Source of the DNA: an uncultured Rhodospirillales bacterium
GTDB lineage: Bacteria > Pseudomonadota > Alphaproteobacteria > Acetobacterales > Acetobacteraceae
DNA: 7,807 nucleotides
NCBI GenBank assembly: GCA_903928045.1
Contig: CAIYPH010000857.1
Coordinates: 1-7,807 of the forward strand
Reading direction: 5' to 3'
Shown here: positions 1,920 through 7,807 of the stretch, piece after piece
Position numbering within the stretch: position 1 is the stretch's first letter
How the letters are laid out: every line of letters starts with the position of its first letter
Notes under the pieces: model-generated
What the model was told of the DNA's origin: nothing
The model's database searches: none
What the model saw: only the letters and a program-made list of their open reading frames with translations
Made by a program: the position numbers and the translations under genes

Positions 1920-4900
1920 TCAATGCGGCCCAAGCCCGGTCAGCCGCCCCCCACCCTCGCCGATCACCGCGAAAGGTGCCCAGTAGAACGGATGCGCCAC
2001 ATCCGGATTGAGATCGACCCCCGCCCCATCTAGCATCCCAAGTTCGGCCGCGCGCAACGCCTCCGCGATTCCGTAGCTTGGATTGTCCCTGAGTTGGCGG
2101 AGCATGACCGCCACGAGATAGGCCGCCGTCTGGTCGTTCACCGCCCAATGCGTCACCATCAGCGCCCGCGCCCCGGCGTAGAAGAAACTGCGTGCCAGTC
2201 CCGACAGACTCTCCCCGGCCACCACTCCGCCAGGCCCACCCGAATTGCAGGCGGAAAGGATGACGAGATCGGCGTCGAGATTGAGGTTGGCGATCTTGGA
2301 CGCCGACAGCAACGCTCCGATCGCATCGCTCGCGCCGCCGGGAACCGAGGTCACGATCGCTGGCTCGGTCTGGCAGGCGATTTCCGATGGCAGCAGGGCG
2401 TGGGTCGAGAATTGCAGCACCCGGTAATCCCGCAAATCCCGACCCAGCACGCTGGACGCGGTGAAGGCCGCCCCCAGCAACTCCTCGCTGGTCTGCGCGC
2501 CCAGCAGCAACCGCGCCGCCTCCAACTCCCGCTTGGCGAACGGAAGCGTCGACAACTCCGCCAGCGCCTTCGCGCTCGTCCCGCATTCGGCCGCTGGGAA
2601 TGTCCGCTGCGCCTGGTCTAGTGTGATAGGGGTGAACTCGCCAAACCCGAACCAGGGCCGCGCCGCCCGCGACCCGCCAGCGATCCGGCGCAATGAGACG
2701 AAGTTGCCGGGCGAAGGCACATGACTGAGGCTGAACCGCCGCAACAGCCAGGGCGCGGTGCCGAGCCTGTCAGACACTGTCGATGCCGTCAGCAGCAAAT
2801 CGAACGGCAAGGCCAGCAGTGGGCCGACCGGCGCGATTGCTAGCGACGTGATCCCGTCAAGATCGCTCCCGATAGGCCCCAGCGTCGCCGAGTAGATCGC
2901 ATGAGCCGACCCGGTATCGAACGGCCGCAACACCCCGTCCTCCGCCTCGATCGAGGCCCGCACCCGCCCGACCAGCTCGCTCATCCGCACCAGCCCGCCG
3001 TCGGTCCGCGCAACCGTGAGCCGCTCCTTGCGGAGCAGGAAGACCCAGCCTGTGTTGGCGTTCAACGTCATCGCGACGAACGCCTCGCCCGCACGCAACG
3101 CCGACTTCAAGGTCGCCGCCGACACCACCTGCTGTACCAGCTGTCCGTAATTCGGCGCCGCCGCCTGCAACGCCGAATCCGCCTCGGCGAGCGCGGCTTG
3201 TGCATCGCTGATGCGCTGGTCGAGCTCAGTCGCCTCGGCCGACTTGCCGCCGCCGCGCTGCACCAGGTCATCCCGCCGCCGGTAAAGCTCGGCCAGCGCC
3301 GAACCGGCGTCCTGCCGGGCACGCACTGCGTCGGCCACTTGCGGGTTCTTCGCGTTTTCGCCAAGTCGCGCCGTCGCCTGCGCGATCTGCTGGCTGGTGA
3401 TGCCGCCCTGCGCCACCTGGGCGATCATGAACATCTCGGCGTAGAGGCTCTGCCGCTCATCGGCCCGGCGCTCCGCCCGCCCGGCCAGCACATCGAGGCA
3501 GCCCGCGATAAAATCCGGGTCGGTCCCGGTTTTCAGCATGGTCAACGTCTTCATCCCAGCGCGGCATTCCTGCAGCGCCAGATCGACGTCGCCCGCCAGG
3601 GCAAGCTGCCACGCCCGCACCATGCGGGTGTTGGCGACAGGCTTGCTGTCGGGCAGGACGCGGCCGAAGGCGCTGATCGCGCGATCAAGCTCATCGCTGG
3701 CCGCCTCGTGCCGCCCCGCGGCCGCCTCGGTCATCGCGCCGGTCCGGTGCAGTCGCGCCAGCAGCAGCGGTTGAGTCAGGCCGTTGCCGCGGGCGAGATC
3801 ACTGGCGGACTTCAGGCTCTCGGCGCTTTCCTCGATCCGCCCGAGATCGCGCAGGACGAGCCCGCGATAGCGCCGCACCTCGACCAGGCCGAACAACGCG
3901 GACCGCGCGACCGGCTCGGTGACCAGTTCGTGTGACGGCAACAGGTCGGTGACATTCGCCGCCCCCGCCCGCACGAAGCGGGACGTCGGCGGTTGTGGCC
4001 GGGCGGTGAGCACGCTTTGGGGCAGGGAGCGCCGATACTCGGCCTCCGCCCGCGCCAGCAGCCGCAGCGTCTCGTCGAGGTTGCCCCGGTTGCGCGCGCT
4101 GAGAGCACGGTAGTGCGCGAGCCGCGCGACCGCCAAGGGATCCGCGGCGTGGCCAACCAGCTCGCCGGCGCGGGCGAACAGCTGCTCCGCCTCCTGATCG
4201 CGGCCCTGGTTCGATAATTGCAGTGCGAGATAGGTCAGCGGTGTCACCGTGTTCGGATCATCCCGGCCGAGCACCCGCTGCTGCAGGGCGAGCGCGGCGC
4301 GAAAGGCGATCTCGGCCTGGCCGGGATCATCCGAGAGGTTCGCCCGCGTTCCGGCCTCGATCAACTGATCGTACTGCCCGATATCTCCGGCGCCGAAGGC
4401 CGCCAGGGCGAGACGTTCGGCGAACAGCCCTGATGCCGTCGATCGCGGCTGGCCGGAGGAGGGCGGCGATCGGCCGACCCCGATGGCGATCGCCCGCTCG
4501 ATCACCGGCAGGGCGGGCAGCACCCCATCCGCGTACCAGGTCATCCCGCCGATCTCGGCCACCAGCGCAACCTGCGGCCAACCACCGAGGCGGCGGGTGC
4601 ATGCCATCACGAGGGCCGGTACGTCCCCCAGGATCCGGCGCTCATTCGGCTCGCCGCACGCGAAATGGGTATCGAGCGCCGCCCGCCAAGGGCCGCTCTG
4701 CGCCGCCTGGCGCAGCGCGACGCCGGCCGGCCCGGTGCGCAGACGGGCACTTGGCTGCAGCCACGTGCCGCAGACGACATCGATCCCGCTCGCGGGGGTG
4801 CCCGACATGGTGCAGGCCTCGCCGACGCTGTTGTCCCCGATGCTGCTCTGGCCGACCGCCGGGCGGGCGGCGCCGACATAGGACTCCGGCGGAGGTTTGG

Positions 4901-4964
4901 TACAGCCGGCCAGCGCGAGAAGCGCCGCCAGCAGACCCCCGCGCCACGACATGCTAAAGGTCAT
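1920..4964 (-). CDS. TPR-CHAT lipoprotein, putative caspase-like cysteine protease
   Basis: A 1014-residue predicted envelope lipoprotein with a C-terminal CHAT (caspase HetF-associated with TPRs) domain. Layout: signal peptide with lipobox LAGC (Cys21); a 22-200 region with four cysteines (51, 65, 103, 122); TPR-like helical pairs at about 212-312 and 355-500; a coiled coil near 545-600; the CHAT linker APNYGQLVQQ...LRAGEAFVAMTL (603-633); and the peptidase fold to about 1002. His855 (in VLQFSTHALLPSE) and Cys906 (in LVILSACNSGG) form the expected dyad, followed by the family signatures LARSFFYAGARALMVTHW and HPFYWAPFAVIG. The preferred ATG at 4964 overlaps the upstream repeat-protein gene by 11 nt; an ATG at 4952 is an alternative. 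The frame stays open to 5255, but that extension would bury the signal peptide and is a shadow of the upstream gene. With Thr at +2 after the lipid Cys, outer-membrane sorting is plausible. The substrate is unknown; the paired repeat protein is the obvious candidate by inference only. Confidence 0.9.
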   Translation of the reverse strand: MTFSMSWRGGLLAALLALAGCTKPPPESYVGAARPAVGQSSIGDNSVGEACTMSGTPASGIDVVCGTWLQPSARLRTGPAGVALRQAAQSGPWRAALDTHFACGEPNERRILGDVPALVMACTRRLGGWPQVALVAEIGGMTWYADGVLPALPVIERAIAIGVGRSPPSSGQPRSTASGLFAERLALAAFGAGDIGQYDQLIEAGTRANLSDDPGQAEIAFRAALALQQRVLGRDDPNTVTPLTYLALQLSNQGRDQEAEQLFARAGELVGHAADPLAVARLAHYRALSARNRGNLDETLRLLARAEAEYRRSLPQSVLTARPQPPTSRFVRAGAANVTDLLPSHELVTEPVARSALFGLVEVRRYRGLVLRDLGRIEESAESLKSASDLARGNGLTQPLLLARLHRTGAMTEAAAGRHEAASDELDRAISAFGRVLPDSKPVANTRMVRAWQLALAGDVDLALQECRAGMKTLTMLKTGTDPDFIAGCLDVLAGRAERRADERQSLYAEMFMIAQVAQGGITSQQIAQATARLGENAKNPQVADAVRARQDAGSALAELYRRRDDLVQRGGGKSAEATELDQRISDAQAALAEADSALQAAAPNYGQLVQQVVSAATLKSALRAGEAFVAMTLNANTGWVFLLRKERLTVARTDGGLVRMSELVGRVRASIEAEDGVLRPFDTGSAHAIYSATLGPIGSDLDGITSLAIAPVGPLLALPFDLLLTASTVSDRLGTAPWLLRRFSLSHVPSPGNFVSLRRIAGGSRAARPWFGFGEFTPITLDQAQRTFPAAECGTSAKALAELSTLPFAKRELEAARLLLGAQTSEELLGAAFTASSVLGRDLRDYRVLQFSTHALLPSEIACQTEPAIVTSVPGGASDAIGALLSASKIANLNLDADLVILSACNSGGPGGVVAGESLSGLARSFFYAGARALMVTHWAVNDQTAAYLVAVMLRQLRDNPSYGIAEALRAAELGMLDGAGVDLNPDVAHPFYWAPFAVIGEGGGRLTGLGPH
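4902..4964 (-). other. Lipoprotein signal peptide of the CHAT protein
   Basis: Residues 1-21: a short N-region with Arg8, a hydrophobic core GGLLAALLALA and the lipobox Leu-Ala-Gly-Cys, with the Cys codon at 4902-4904. The following TKPPPES is a typical flexible tether. This places a CHAT domain outside the cytoplasm, whereas the best-studied CHAT proteases are cytoplasmic. Confidence 0.85.
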
Positions 4965-7807
4965 CACGCGAAACGTTTGGCAACAGCACCTGGGCGTCGT
5001 CGATCGTGTCTCGCGCCGGGTGGATGTCGAGGTCACGGATCGGGATCGTCTGGGGCAGACGCTCGGTGGACACCACGAAGCATGCGACTGAGGCGATCGG
5101 GCAAGCATTGATCTGGTAAAGCGCGCTCGGCCCGGGTGCGATGGCGGAAATCTGGGCCGCGGCCTGGCCGCCAACGCCGCGAACCGTGCCCGACAAATTG
5201 ACGTTGCCGGTGGCTCCACGGGGATAGGCGATCGAGAGGCCGCCAAGCGCGACATTGCCGGACAAATGGGCCCGACTGCCGAGATTGACGAGCAATGTCG
5301 TCGTGCCGGCGACCAGCCCGCCGACGGTGTCGATCACGCCGCTGCCGCTGAGATCGACGCGCAGGGTCTGGGTCGCGGCCCCGCTGACACCACCGATCGT
5401 GGTGTTCCAGCCGATGACCAGGTTTTGCGCCGCAATGAAGGCTCCCGCGGACGACCCGGCCGCGGTGGGCCAGGAGGCCGATGATGCGTTGCCCAGGGGC
5501 GCGCCCGCACTGCCGGTCAACAGCGTGACGCCAGTCGCGAGGTCGACCAGCGCGGCCTGACCGCCGTTGGGGCCGCCGAGGAAGAGGCGCCCGCTCGATA
5601 CCAGGCCGCCGAGTGAGATCGCCCCGGGCGTCGCGAGCGTCAGATCGGTGGCAGTGATCGAACTGCCGGTGGGGGCCGAGAGATTCCCGGCGGATTGCAA
5701 CACGGTCGCGCCAGAACCGGATGTCACCGATACATTTGCGGCCAGCGCGAGATTTCCCTGCGAGAGCAGCCGAAGCCCGCCGGCCGCCTGCACCGGGCCA
5801 TTGATCAGCAAGGACGCCGTATCGACCAGGCCGATAGTACCATTGGACGAAATCAGCGAATCAACGACCGACACCACGTTTGCCGCGCCGACCGGATCGA
5901 GCGCGGTGCTTTGCCGTGCATTCGTGGTCAGATGGGTCGCGACGATCTGACCGGGCCCAAACACGGGCGCGCCGGGCTGTGCCAGACGATCCAGCTCCAG
6001 AATCCCTCCGAGCGGGGCGCTCAAGGCGACCGTTCCGCTGGTGCCCGGAGCAGACAGGGTGCCGCCGATCTCCAGCGTCGCCCCGGCCGCCGCCGCGGAT
6101 ATCGCGACGGTACCGTTATTGTCGGTGGCGCCGATGAAAGACCCGTGATCTTGGGTGAAGGTGCCGAAGCGGGACGCGATGACGACCCCGCTGCCCCCCG
6201 CGACTAGGCTGCCCGAAACCTGCTCGATCGCCGGCCCGGCGGCGATGTTCGCGTCGGCGCCGACGGTGATGGTGCCGGTGATGCTGAGCTGGCTTGTGGT
6301 CACCAGGACGAGGCGGCCACCGATCGCGCCGCCGGTGAGCGCGCCGATGCGGTTGGAGCTCGAATCGAGGATGACACTCCCGGCGGCGCTCGCGCTCACA
6401 CCCTGAACGAACACCGTCCCTTTGTTGCCGCCGATGCCGTTCTCCGCGACGCCGCCCGACAGGCTGTTCAGGGTCAGCACCCCGTGCGGCGCGATGACGC
6501 TGGCGCCGATCCCGATCGGTCCCTCGGACGTGATGTTAACCGAGCCGGCGGAGGTCATCGATGCGCCGGCGAGCTGGATGAAGCTGCCTTGGGCCGACAT
6601 GATGTTGAGCAGGCTGCCAGTGGCGCTCGCGGTGATGCCGCCGGATACCTGCTGGATGCCGAGATCCGCGCTGAGCTGGACACCGCCCGGGCCGCCCGAG
6701 ACGTTACCGGGGACGGTCATCGCGCCGGTGGTCTGCACCACCAAGCGGTTGCTGGCGCTGATCTGGCCGATCACGGTCAGAGCGCCGGTTGACGACAAGG
6801 TCAGGTCACCGGCGAGGGTGGTGATGGTGCCGAGCGTCGTAATCGCATTGGCGGGCGATTGCAGGGAGACCGAGGCGGACTGCGGAACGCCGGCCAGGCC
6901 CGTCTGCTCGTTGAGCAGGGTCGCGCTGATGCGCCCGTTGGGCTCGGTGATACCATTGGCGGCGGAGACGGCAATGGTGCCAGCGCTCAATACCCCGGCC
7001 CCGATGGCGGTCCCGATCGCGAGGGTGCCCAAGCTGAGGCCGATCGTCAGGTGTCCGAGGTTGGGGGTGCCGGTCGTCGCCCCGCCGGCGGCGATGGTGC
7101 CTGCCACCGACATCGAAACCCCGTTCAACAACAGGAAATCGCCCGATGTCGTGAACGACGAAAGGCTCGCGATGGCGTTCGCGCCGGCCAAATTGACCGA
7201 GCCCAATGCAGCTGGCGCAGCACCGGAATTTGGCCCGATCAGGAGATTGGTCACGATGCTGCTCGCCGATGTCTCGGAGATCGCCGAGGCGGTGAGCAAG
7301 GCAACGGTGGCACCGGAGACCACCGCCTGCTGGTTGCCGCTGCCGATCGCGATAGGACCCGCCGAGGCCAGCCGGAGCGTCGCGCTGTTGGCGCCAGCGG
7401 CCACGGCGCCGGTCACTGTCAGGGGGACGGCATCGACGAGCGAGAAATTGCCCGTCGTGGTGAACGCACCCAGCTCGATGACGCTGTTCGCCGCCTCGAG
7501 CGTCACCGCCGCGGCGGAAGACTGCGCCAGCCCCGCGGCAGGGCCGGTGAGGCGGTTGGCGGTGATGATGCCGCCGGTCTGGCTAATTGTTCCCGCCGCC
7601 AGCAAAGAAATGGTGCCCGCCGCCAGGGGCGCGCCGATCGTGAGGTCACCGGCCGAGGCCAAGGTCAAGGTGTTGGCGTTGGCCGCGTTGGGGAGGGACG
7701 GCAGGCCGAGGGTGATCGGGCCGGACACCGTCATCGCGACACGGCTGTTGATGGAGACATCGCCCGTCGCGTTGATGCCGCCAAGCGCGGCAATGGCGTT
7801 GTTGCCG
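4954..7807 (-). CDS. Filamentous-haemagglutinin-like beta-strand repeat exoprotein, C-terminal part (5' end outside window)
   Basis: About 950 C-terminal residues of a large protein whose frame stays open to the right window edge, so the ATG at 7734 is internal. Composition is dominated by Ala, Gly, Ser, Thr, Val, Leu and Ile with few charged residues, in short alternating strands such as TLRLASAGPIAIGSG and GALTVIGQISAS. This is the pattern of right-handed beta-helix exoproteins of the TpsA/filamentous haemagglutinin type. A degenerate motif (Asn-x-Ile-x-x-Leu ... Gly-Asp/Asn-hydrophobic ... Leu-x-Val-x-Gly-x-Ile) recurs at least six times. The last ~55 residues differ: they hold the only two cysteines seen (NACPIASVACF) and a charged tail ending LLPNVSRDDL. 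No beta-barrel translocator is present at the C-terminus, which argues against a classical autotransporter. By family knowledge, secretion would need an N-terminal TPS domain and a TpsB pore, both expected upstream and not visible. The stop codon lies inside the start region of the CHAT lipoprotein gene, so the two are probably co-translated. Confidence 0.8.
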   Translation of the reverse strand, partial: GNNAIAALGGINATGDVSINSRVAMTVSGPITLGLPSLPNAANANTLTLASAGDLTIGAPLAAGTISLLAAGTISQTGGIITANRLTGPAAGLAQSSAAAVTLEAANSVIELGAFTTTGNFSLVDAVPLTVTGAVAAGANSATLRLASAGPIAIGSGNQQAVVSGATVALLTASAISETSASSIVTNLLIGPNSGAAPAALGSVNLAGANAIASLSSFTTSGDFLLLNGVSMSVAGTIAAGGATTGTPNLGHLTIGLSLGTLAIGTAIGAGVLSAGTIAVSAANGITEPNGRISATLLNEQTGLAGVPQSASVSLQSPANAITTLGTITTLAGDLTLSSTGALTVIGQISASNRLVVQTTGAMTVPGNVSGGPGGVQLSADLGIQQVSGGITASATGSLLNIMSAQGSFIQLAGASMTSAGSVNITSEGPIGIGASVIAPHGVLTLNSLSGGVAENGIGGNKGTVFVQGVSASAAGSVILDSSSNRIGALTGGAIGGRLVLVTTSQLSITGTITVGADANIAAGPAIEQVSGSLVAGGSGVVIASRFGTFTQDHGSFIGATDNNGTVAISAAAAGATLEIGGTLSAPGTSGTVALSAPLGGILELDRLAQPGAPVFGPGQIVATHLTTNARQSTALDPVGAANVVSVVDSLISSNGTIGLVDTASLLINGPVQAAGGLRLLSQGNLALAANVSVTSGSGATVLQSAGNLSAPTGSSITATDLTLATPGAISLGGLVSSGRLFLGGPNGGQAALVDLATGVTLLTGSAGAPLGNASSASWPTAAGSSAGAFIAAQNLVIGWNTTIGGVSGAATQTLRVDLSGSGVIDTVGGLVAGTTTLLVNLGSRAHLSGNVALGGLSIAYPRGATGNVNLSGTVRGVGGQAAAQISAIAPGPSALYQINACPIASVACFVVSTERLPQTIPIRDLDIHPARDTIDDAQVLLPNVSRDDL
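4957..5124 (-). other. Conserved-looking C-terminal tail of the exoprotein with a Cys pair
   Basis: The last 56 residues break from the low-complexity beta repeats. They open with ALYQINACPIASVACFVV (two cysteines six residues apart, able to form a small disulfide loop), then an Arg/Asp-rich stretch with PIRDLDIHPARDTIDDAQ, and end with VLLPNVSRDDL. From memory, similar Cys-loop plus RDL...LLPNVS...D endings occur on haemagglutinin-like proteins of Rhodospirillales. This looks like a family-specific end signal rather than filler, but its role is unknown. Confidence 0.55.
5779..5889 (-). repeat. Diverged sixth copy of the exoprotein repeat core
   Basis: AANVVSVVDSLISSNGTIGL followed by SLLINGPVQAAG keeps the general core pattern with the Leu replaced by Val. 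It is about 158 residues after the fifth copy and is the last recognisable one before the C-terminal region. Confidence 0.5.
6259..6357 (-). repeat. Diverged fifth copy of the exoprotein repeat core
   Basis: SNRIGALTGGAIGGRLVL followed by QLSITGTITVG preserves the Asn-x-Ile-x-x-Leu start and the Leu-x-Ile-x-Gly-x-Ile end of the core, but lies about 165 residues after the previous copy rather than ~105. Confidence 0.55.
6754..7806 (-). repeat. Four copies of a ~104-110-residue protein repeat
   Basis: In the translated exoprotein the motif (A/N)N-x-I-x-x-L ... (T/A)xGD-x-x-(L/I) ... (L/M)(T/S)V-x-G-x-I-x-(A/L) recurs at 7705-7806 (NNAIAALGG..ATGDVSI), 7393-7494 (ANSVIELGAFTTTGNFSL), 7084-7185 (GANAIASLSSFTTSGDFL) and 6754-6858 (PANAITTLGTITTLAGDL). 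The motif asparagines are 104, 103 and 110 residues apart. Between cores, a second element, hydrophobic-SGA(G/T)-I-x-x-(T/P)xG-x-I-x(4)L, also recurs. The repeats are clear in protein but degenerate in DNA, so they are old. Confidence 0.75.

Follow-up and report, generated by a model that had tools for sequence, protein, structure and literature searches.

A conserved C-terminal tail suggests a handle for a predicted CHAT protease encoded beside two-partner-secretion exoproteins of Acetobacteraceae

The locus described here is a three-component two-partner-secretion operon with the gene order tpsB-tpsA-chat, in which the exoproteins (TpsA) encoded beside a CHAT protein end in a short conserved tag that is associated with the presence of CHAT. 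The C-terminal tail bearing this tag looks like a handle for the CHAT protein, a predicted protease with a lipoprotein signal, and because an exported protease adjoins an exoprotein with such a common handle-like tail, the operon probably encodes a system dedicated to the processing or release of surface proteins. The initial annotation of the window, i.e., of the whole stretch of 7,807 nucleotides that was analysed, had proposed among other roles that the protease processes its partner, a reading that the conserved tail refines by pointing to the end of the exoprotein. The parts are of known kinds and automatic annotation already names such proteins CHAT domain-containing, but the combination, an operon-encoded CHAT protease with a C-terminal tag, was not found described in the literature searched, where no paper linked CHAT domains to two-partner secretion or to filamentous hemagglutinin (most subscription journals lay outside this search).

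The tpsB-tpsA-chat operon and its conservation

An exoprotein gene next to a CHAT gene with a lipoprotein signal and an intact His/Cys dyad had been reported for the window, and this layout is confirmed by the open reading frames, the Pfam family PF12770, the lipobox LLALAGC and the residues His855 and Cys906 (Table 1). The reported overlap of 11 nt between both genes stands if chat starts at the ATG at 4964, but not if the in-frame ATG at 4952 is used, which leaves a gap of 1 nt and likewise yields a usable lipoprotein signal peptide. The distance between tpsA and chat is -4 to +14 nt in 53 of 62 linked pairs (starts chosen by the analyst), so the close coupling is real with either start. On the other side of chat lie ordinary neighbours, namely a DUF3126 gene (1628-1933) and, on the opposite strand, the end of ureE with ureF and ureG (2-1615); ureG and ureF are also found beyond chat in two related loci (L001 and L007). 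A Cas7-11 gene is absent among the immediate neighbours in the window (tpsA, DUF3126 and the urease genes).

Table 1. Features of the window, with positions counted from its first nucleotide.
Feature	Position	Strand	Basis or remark
TPR-CHAT lipoprotein gene, 1014 aa	1920..4964	-	AF2 model, mean pLDDT 86; other start ATG 4952
CHAT protease domain (predicted), residues 686-1003	1956..2909	-	PF12770
Codon of predicted catalytic Cys906 (SACN)	2247..2249	-	kept in 188/188 rows
Codon of predicted catalytic His855 (STHA)	2400..2402	-	kept in 188/188 rows
TPR superhelix, residues 176-500	3465..4439	-	profile matches and AF2 model
N-terminal alpha/beta domain, residues 36-165	4470..4859	-	near-invariant cysteines 51, 65, 103 and 122
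Signal peptide and lipobox LAGC (...LLALAGC)	4902..4964	-	predicted acylated Cys21 at 4902-4904; Cys in 184/188 rows
tpsA exoprotein gene, 3' part, 950 aa, with its 5' end beyond the window	4954..7806	-	open frame
Conserved terminal tag of TpsA, DDAQVLLPNVSRDDL	4957..5001	-	strict end pattern in linked TpsA
C-terminal tail of TpsA, predicted disordered	4957..5070	-	pLDDT <50, model residues 363-400
Cysteine hook of TpsA, C-PIASVA-C, where the beta-rich part ends	5080..5103	-	C..C pattern in the tails of relatives

The 950-residue exoprotein fragment alone gave no match to Pfam or NCBIfam in a profile search. Among 11 related loci from named genomes, five (L001, L002, L003, L007, and L008) show the order tpsB-tpsA-chat, with relatives of the window exoprotein that are complete at both ends and 2259-2892 aa long, and with a tpsB product of 569-573 aa (incomplete in L008, where the stretch ends within it). 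Pfam assigns ShlB and POTRA_2 to tpsB of L001 and L003, and tpsA of L001, the only one of the five that was scanned, has a TPS secretion domain at its start (PF05860, E 1.5e-23); the other tpsB and tpsA genes of the five loci were read from the sequence. The TPS domains and TpsB proteins of its relatives thereby bear out the initial assignment of the exoprotein to the two-partner-secretion type.

The pair was followed in 200 genomes of the Acetobacteraceae, the family of Limobrevibacterium gyesilva. CHAT is found in 86 of these genomes (strong matches in 78) and TPS in 106, with 74 genomes carrying both, 12 only CHAT, 32 only TPS and 82 neither (Fisher 6e-17, kinship ignored). A TPS domain lies upstream on the same strand and within 20 kb for 50 of the 114 CHAT matches, any other arrangement within that distance being absent, and at least 43 of these 50 pairs have ShlB no more than 3 kb upstream. 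With the whole protein as query, 84 full-length CHAT relatives were obtained, 50 of which are paired with an upstream TPS domain on the same strand, so that the conservation of the pair across relatives, on which the initial annotation had made its reading depend, is indeed observed. The 34 unpaired relatives comprise 24 on contigs with less than 12 kb upstream, eight with an undetermined length upstream and two orphan genes (L097 and L098, from genomes G158 and G178) with at least 20 kb upstream and no TPS. Among 101 CHAT matches in 289 genomes sampled across the class, which may include Acetobacteraceae, 16 show the same pairing (one of them in the seed genome G004) and three more lie near TPS in a different arrangement. 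Two Sphingobium plasmids show the order chat-x-y-tpsB-exoprotein, where tpsB was recognized as ShlB by Pfam and the exoprotein of L144 gave no Pfam match.

That tpsA and chat are chance neighbours without a functional tie is very improbable. The two orphan chat genes would agree with such an explanation, whereas all 50 CHAT matches with TPS within 20 kb keep one order and strand, and the genes are linked again in other orders, together with a common tag, in Sphingobium and in genome G349. Chance pairing was therefore rejected on the conserved order in the family (50/50) and in the class-wide sample.

Several side observations were made in the same surveys. Between chat and tpsB of the Sphingobium plasmids lie two genes annotated as hypothetical (L144:16055-18800 and L190:15055-17800), and on contig C25 of genome G473 (59778-60393) short matches to TPS and to CHAT overlap on the same strand, a pattern suggestive of a decayed pair. 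A plasmid search for wider context returned mostly other CHAT proteins; the CHAT stretches on plasmids of Pseudosulfitobacter, Bradyrhizobium, Novosphingobium, and Calothrix contain no TPS protein by name, their annotation being incomplete, and the Calothrix plasmid (L187:8263-15806) has CHAT, DUF928, CHASE2 and TIR-domain genes together.

The CHAT lipoprotein as a predicted envelope protease

The chat product combines an N-terminal domain without a Pfam family at E 5, a TPR superhelix with a Pfam TPR_12 match at residues 212-266, and a CHAT domain that matches PF12770 with E 4.4e-43 (148 bits versus a cut-off of 24). Among solved structures, the nearest TPR sequences are those of kinesin light chain, and the superhelix also resembles LGN. 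The CHAT domain has a separase/caspase-like fold, and by sequence it is a predicted protease with an intact clan CD active site. The alignment used here has 188 rows, made up of the best 120 of 277 database matches and 68 locus proteins that are not all independent; in these rows the residues flanking Cys906 are nearly invariant, and free variation of the dyad, which according to the initial annotation would speak against its reading, is not seen, as both His855 and Cys906 are invariant. Membership in a known defence set was rejected, since PADLOC returned 0 families at E 0.01.

The sorting rule for outer-membrane lipoproteins derives from E. coli; the residue that follows the lipobox cysteine is threonine in the window protein and aspartate in 15 of the 184 rows that have this cysteine. 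Six other cysteines of the protein are present in 186 to 188 of the 188 rows, which fits the expectation for an oxidising compartment. The export signal of an envelope-anchored CHAT protein, as claimed initially, is thereby upheld, and the lipoprotein probably resides on the periplasmic face of the outer membrane, a location judged from signals alone. Among the class-wide pairs, a lipobox is found in 10 of 15 CHAT proteins and not in the other five (analyst's scan).

The C-terminal hook and tag of the exoprotein and their tie to CHAT

The AF2 model of the last 400 residues of the window TpsA (11 sequences, pLDDT 85) is beta-rich, with strands to about residue 350, followed by cysteines at 352 and 359 and by disorder at 363-400. 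Exoproteins linked to chat end alike despite open frames of up to ~5450 residues, with the end-anchored consensus D-x-D-[VL]-x-L-P-N-[VI]-[SA]-x-x-D-[YF]. A strict pattern, P.[VIA][SARG]..[DE]. at the very end, is present in 49 of 62 linked TpsA, 1 of 30 unlinked TpsA from Acetobacteraceae, none of 16 class-wide controls and 0.12% of shuffled tails, while a looser pattern is present in 56/62, 4/30 and 0/16, respectively, and in 16% of shuffled tails. Several of the 13 linked proteins that miss the strict pattern have the core of the tag plus extra residues, such as ...IPNVSDEDDDE or ...SPNVSEEWTAPGDDEEDDKR; residues beyond the tag occur in L046 and L048, and in L005, L081, and L091 the tag is not seen at the end. 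Upstream of the tag, often about 40 residues before the end, stands YRxNxCPIxSVNC. A C..C pattern is found within the last 95 residues of 57 linked TpsA (the hook being absent from 5 of the 62), in 2 of the 30 unlinked members of the family and in 4 of the 16 class-wide controls.

A second form of the tag, G-N-E-x-L-W, occurs class-wide, rearranged operons included. The 15 class-wide pairs have ends like ...SNTGKDTLW, ...GNEALW or ...GNEDLF, and 13 of them fit a pattern that was written after viewing them (L147 and L155 were missed). The Sphingobium exoprotein ends in ...NGCFIFGSC...VTGAGNEDLWEAPCGGPGEPACDAQ, and that of the second plasmid, annotated in two pieces, ends alike; in G349, where CHAT precedes TPS, the end of the exoprotein reads ...NGCLLIDPASC...VTGAGNEDFWFG..., so hook and tag are present even when the exoprotein gene does not adjoin chat. 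Other common ends were noticed elsewhere. Eight TpsA proteins of ~3800-4250 aa that are not beside CHAT (L125, L126, and L128-L133) share an end near SVIxVEVxxxGG, which is followed by basic residues in four of the eight and may have a partner of its own, and a third common tail like PVYxPKQxRN is found in TpsA of class-wide genomes that lack CHAT (L171, L172, and L174).

Counting both forms, the tag is present in 53 linked exoproteins and lacking in 11, and it is present in one unlinked exoprotein and lacking in 29. The one unlinked protein (L137) has hook and tag but no adjoining CHAT, and a CHAT operon lies elsewhere in its genome. The 30 unlinked controls are not close matches of the linked proteins, as 10 belong to a deep separate TPS clade and eight to another, and only a small number are nested within the linked proteins. 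CHAT-less members lie inside CHAT-bearing groups (L117/L134/L139; L121) in a tree of 104 TPS domains. Of five contrasts that are phylogenetically independent, the tag goes with CHAT in about 3.2 on average and the opposite way in none (p 0.125-0.5, the contrasts being too few for significance).

Distances were compared in 40 pairs. Tail distance covaries with CHAT distance at a partial r of 0.30 (p 0.0015) after correction for TPS distance, and correction for CHAT leaves no link between the tail and the TPS domain (partial r -0.05, p 0.68). By part of the CHAT protein, the value is 0.38 for the CHAT domain, 0.31 for the N-domain and 0.21 for the TPR. In the 34 pairs with a six-spaced hook, the hook itself follows CHAT with 0.56 and the tail with 0.25, and the value for tail and CHAT given the hook falls to 0.01 (p 0.44). 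Genetic linkage of the tpsA 3' end with chat is thus a sufficient explanation, and the covariation was rejected as proof of contact. A strict clamp on a free carboxylate at the end of the tag was rejected on account of the extra residues after some tags.

The same data bear on the explanation that the tail serves as an export stop or plug for the TpsB pore while CHAT merely removes misfolded or stalled TpsA in a quality-control role. In its favour, tail and hook are inherited with the tpsA 3' end, TpsB is encoded in the operon, and the C..C pattern also occurs in the four class-wide controls without adjoining CHAT. Against it, 29 of the 30 unlinked TpsA manage without the tag, L121 has the hook but neither a tag nor a CHAT match in its genome, and correction for CHAT leaves the tail without a link to the TPS domain; we regard this explanation as quite unlikely.

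Proposed mechanism and comparison with known systems

We lean, by a modest degree, towards cutting of the TpsA tail or hook region by CHAT, with release or maturation of the exoprotein. The ShlB/FhaC-type pore TpsB would export the repeat-rich beta exoprotein until export stalls at the C-terminal cysteine hook, which would leave a flexible tail of ~40 residues in the periplasm. There the TPR superhelix and the N-terminal domain of the lipoprotein may bind the conserved tag (LPNVSxxDY in Acetobacteraceae and GNExLW in other Alphaproteobacteria) and thus hold the tail, after which the separase-like CHAT domain (His855/Cys906) would cut either the tail itself or the hook region, releasing or finally maturing the surface protein. 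Speaking against this reading are the tags that do not stand at the very end, the linked TpsA without a hook, the class-wide controls that have one, the two orphan chat genes, the class-wide CHAT proteins that lack a lipobox, the distance of the unlinked controls and the covariation with the tail, which is weaker for the TPR than for the CHAT domain. The more general proposal, that this periplasmic separase-like family is a dedicated type Vb maturation or release enzyme across the Alphaproteobacteria and that its short C-terminal tag is portable between divergent exoproteins, is put forward tentatively, with the balance just against it; it would amount to a previously undescribed system of sorting and processing. 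If the proposed cutting is true, the operon would encode a processing protease in the 78 of the 200 sampled Acetobacteraceae genomes with strong matches, a separase/caspase-like protease would be at work in the periplasm, its candidate substrate being obvious, and a short sequence tag would be at hand by which substrates of the protease can be found.

PorU and other outer-membrane proteases of clan CD are gingipain-like and strip a conserved C-terminal signal from secreted proteins. The present system would resemble them in having an outer-membrane protease and a conserved C-terminal signal on secreted substrates. A TPR-CHAT protein, Csx29, is known from Craspase, where it is a CRISPR partner switched by RNA, and the complex, activated by target RNA, cuts Csx30. 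Csx29 is cytoplasmic and without a signal peptide, and it shares 11% identity with the CHAT lipoprotein over an alignment that starts at model residue 236. A comparable switch is conceivable here: CHAT would be switched on or off when the tail binds, or when a pull on the exoprotein or its release ends this binding, and would act on some other protein of the envelope. No common third gene beside chat was noticed, however, among the open frames listed for L001-L011, and we think such a sensor protease unlikely. HetF and, judging from its title, the CHAT-like DdvA are membrane proteins, which does not overturn the statement of the initial annotation that known CHAT proteases act in the cytoplasm.

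How a TPR domain may grip a short tag is illustrated by kinesin light chain, whose W-acidic and Y-acidic peptides have an aromatic residue flanked by acidic ones, with the JIP1 peptide at the very C-terminus (PMC6214655). The tags ...EEDY and ...NEDLW resemble these ligands, a resemblance only and hence a lead; the JIP1 peptide requires a free carboxylate, whereas some of the bacterial tags are followed by extra residues. A lipoprotein that grips the TpsA tail might also anchor the adhesin on the outer membrane without cleavage, the protease being self-acting or rarely used. The conserved tag and hook, the lipid anchor signal and a TPR superhelix like the peptide-binding ones of kinesin light chain and LGN would all suit such a tether. 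A pure anchor, however, has no need of a dyad that is invariant in 188 of 188 rows with nearly invariant surroundings of Cys906, and in HMW1 (and by expectation HxuA) of Haemophilus influenzae, anchoring is already credited to a C-terminal disulfide loop that keeps the TpsA end in the pore and periplasm (PMC5422565). We therefore consider a tether without cleavage improbable. Two cysteines near the TpsA end are likewise known here from the sequence; in contrast, the passages on HMW1 and HxuA mention neither a CHAT protease nor an LPNVSxxDY or GNExLW tag (PMC5422565).

The proposed cutting by CHAT has its closest counterpart in CdrA, which is freed when the periplasmic LapG of Pseudomonas aeruginosa, a transglutaminase-like protease under c-di-GMP control, cuts its C-terminal tail; according to a review, the genes of such proteases seem to lie outside tps operons (PMC5422565; PMC4694147). 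The protease in the window is not transglutaminase-like but an unrelated TPR-CHAT lipoprotein, and it is encoded in the operon itself. The tag and hook are consistent, at the level of sequence, with cleavage of a periplasmic tail of the LapG type. With the hook as a stopper, a periplasmic tail, a superhelix of the peptide-binding type and an intact clan CD site, the proposed mechanism would fit the logic of HMW1 and CdrA.
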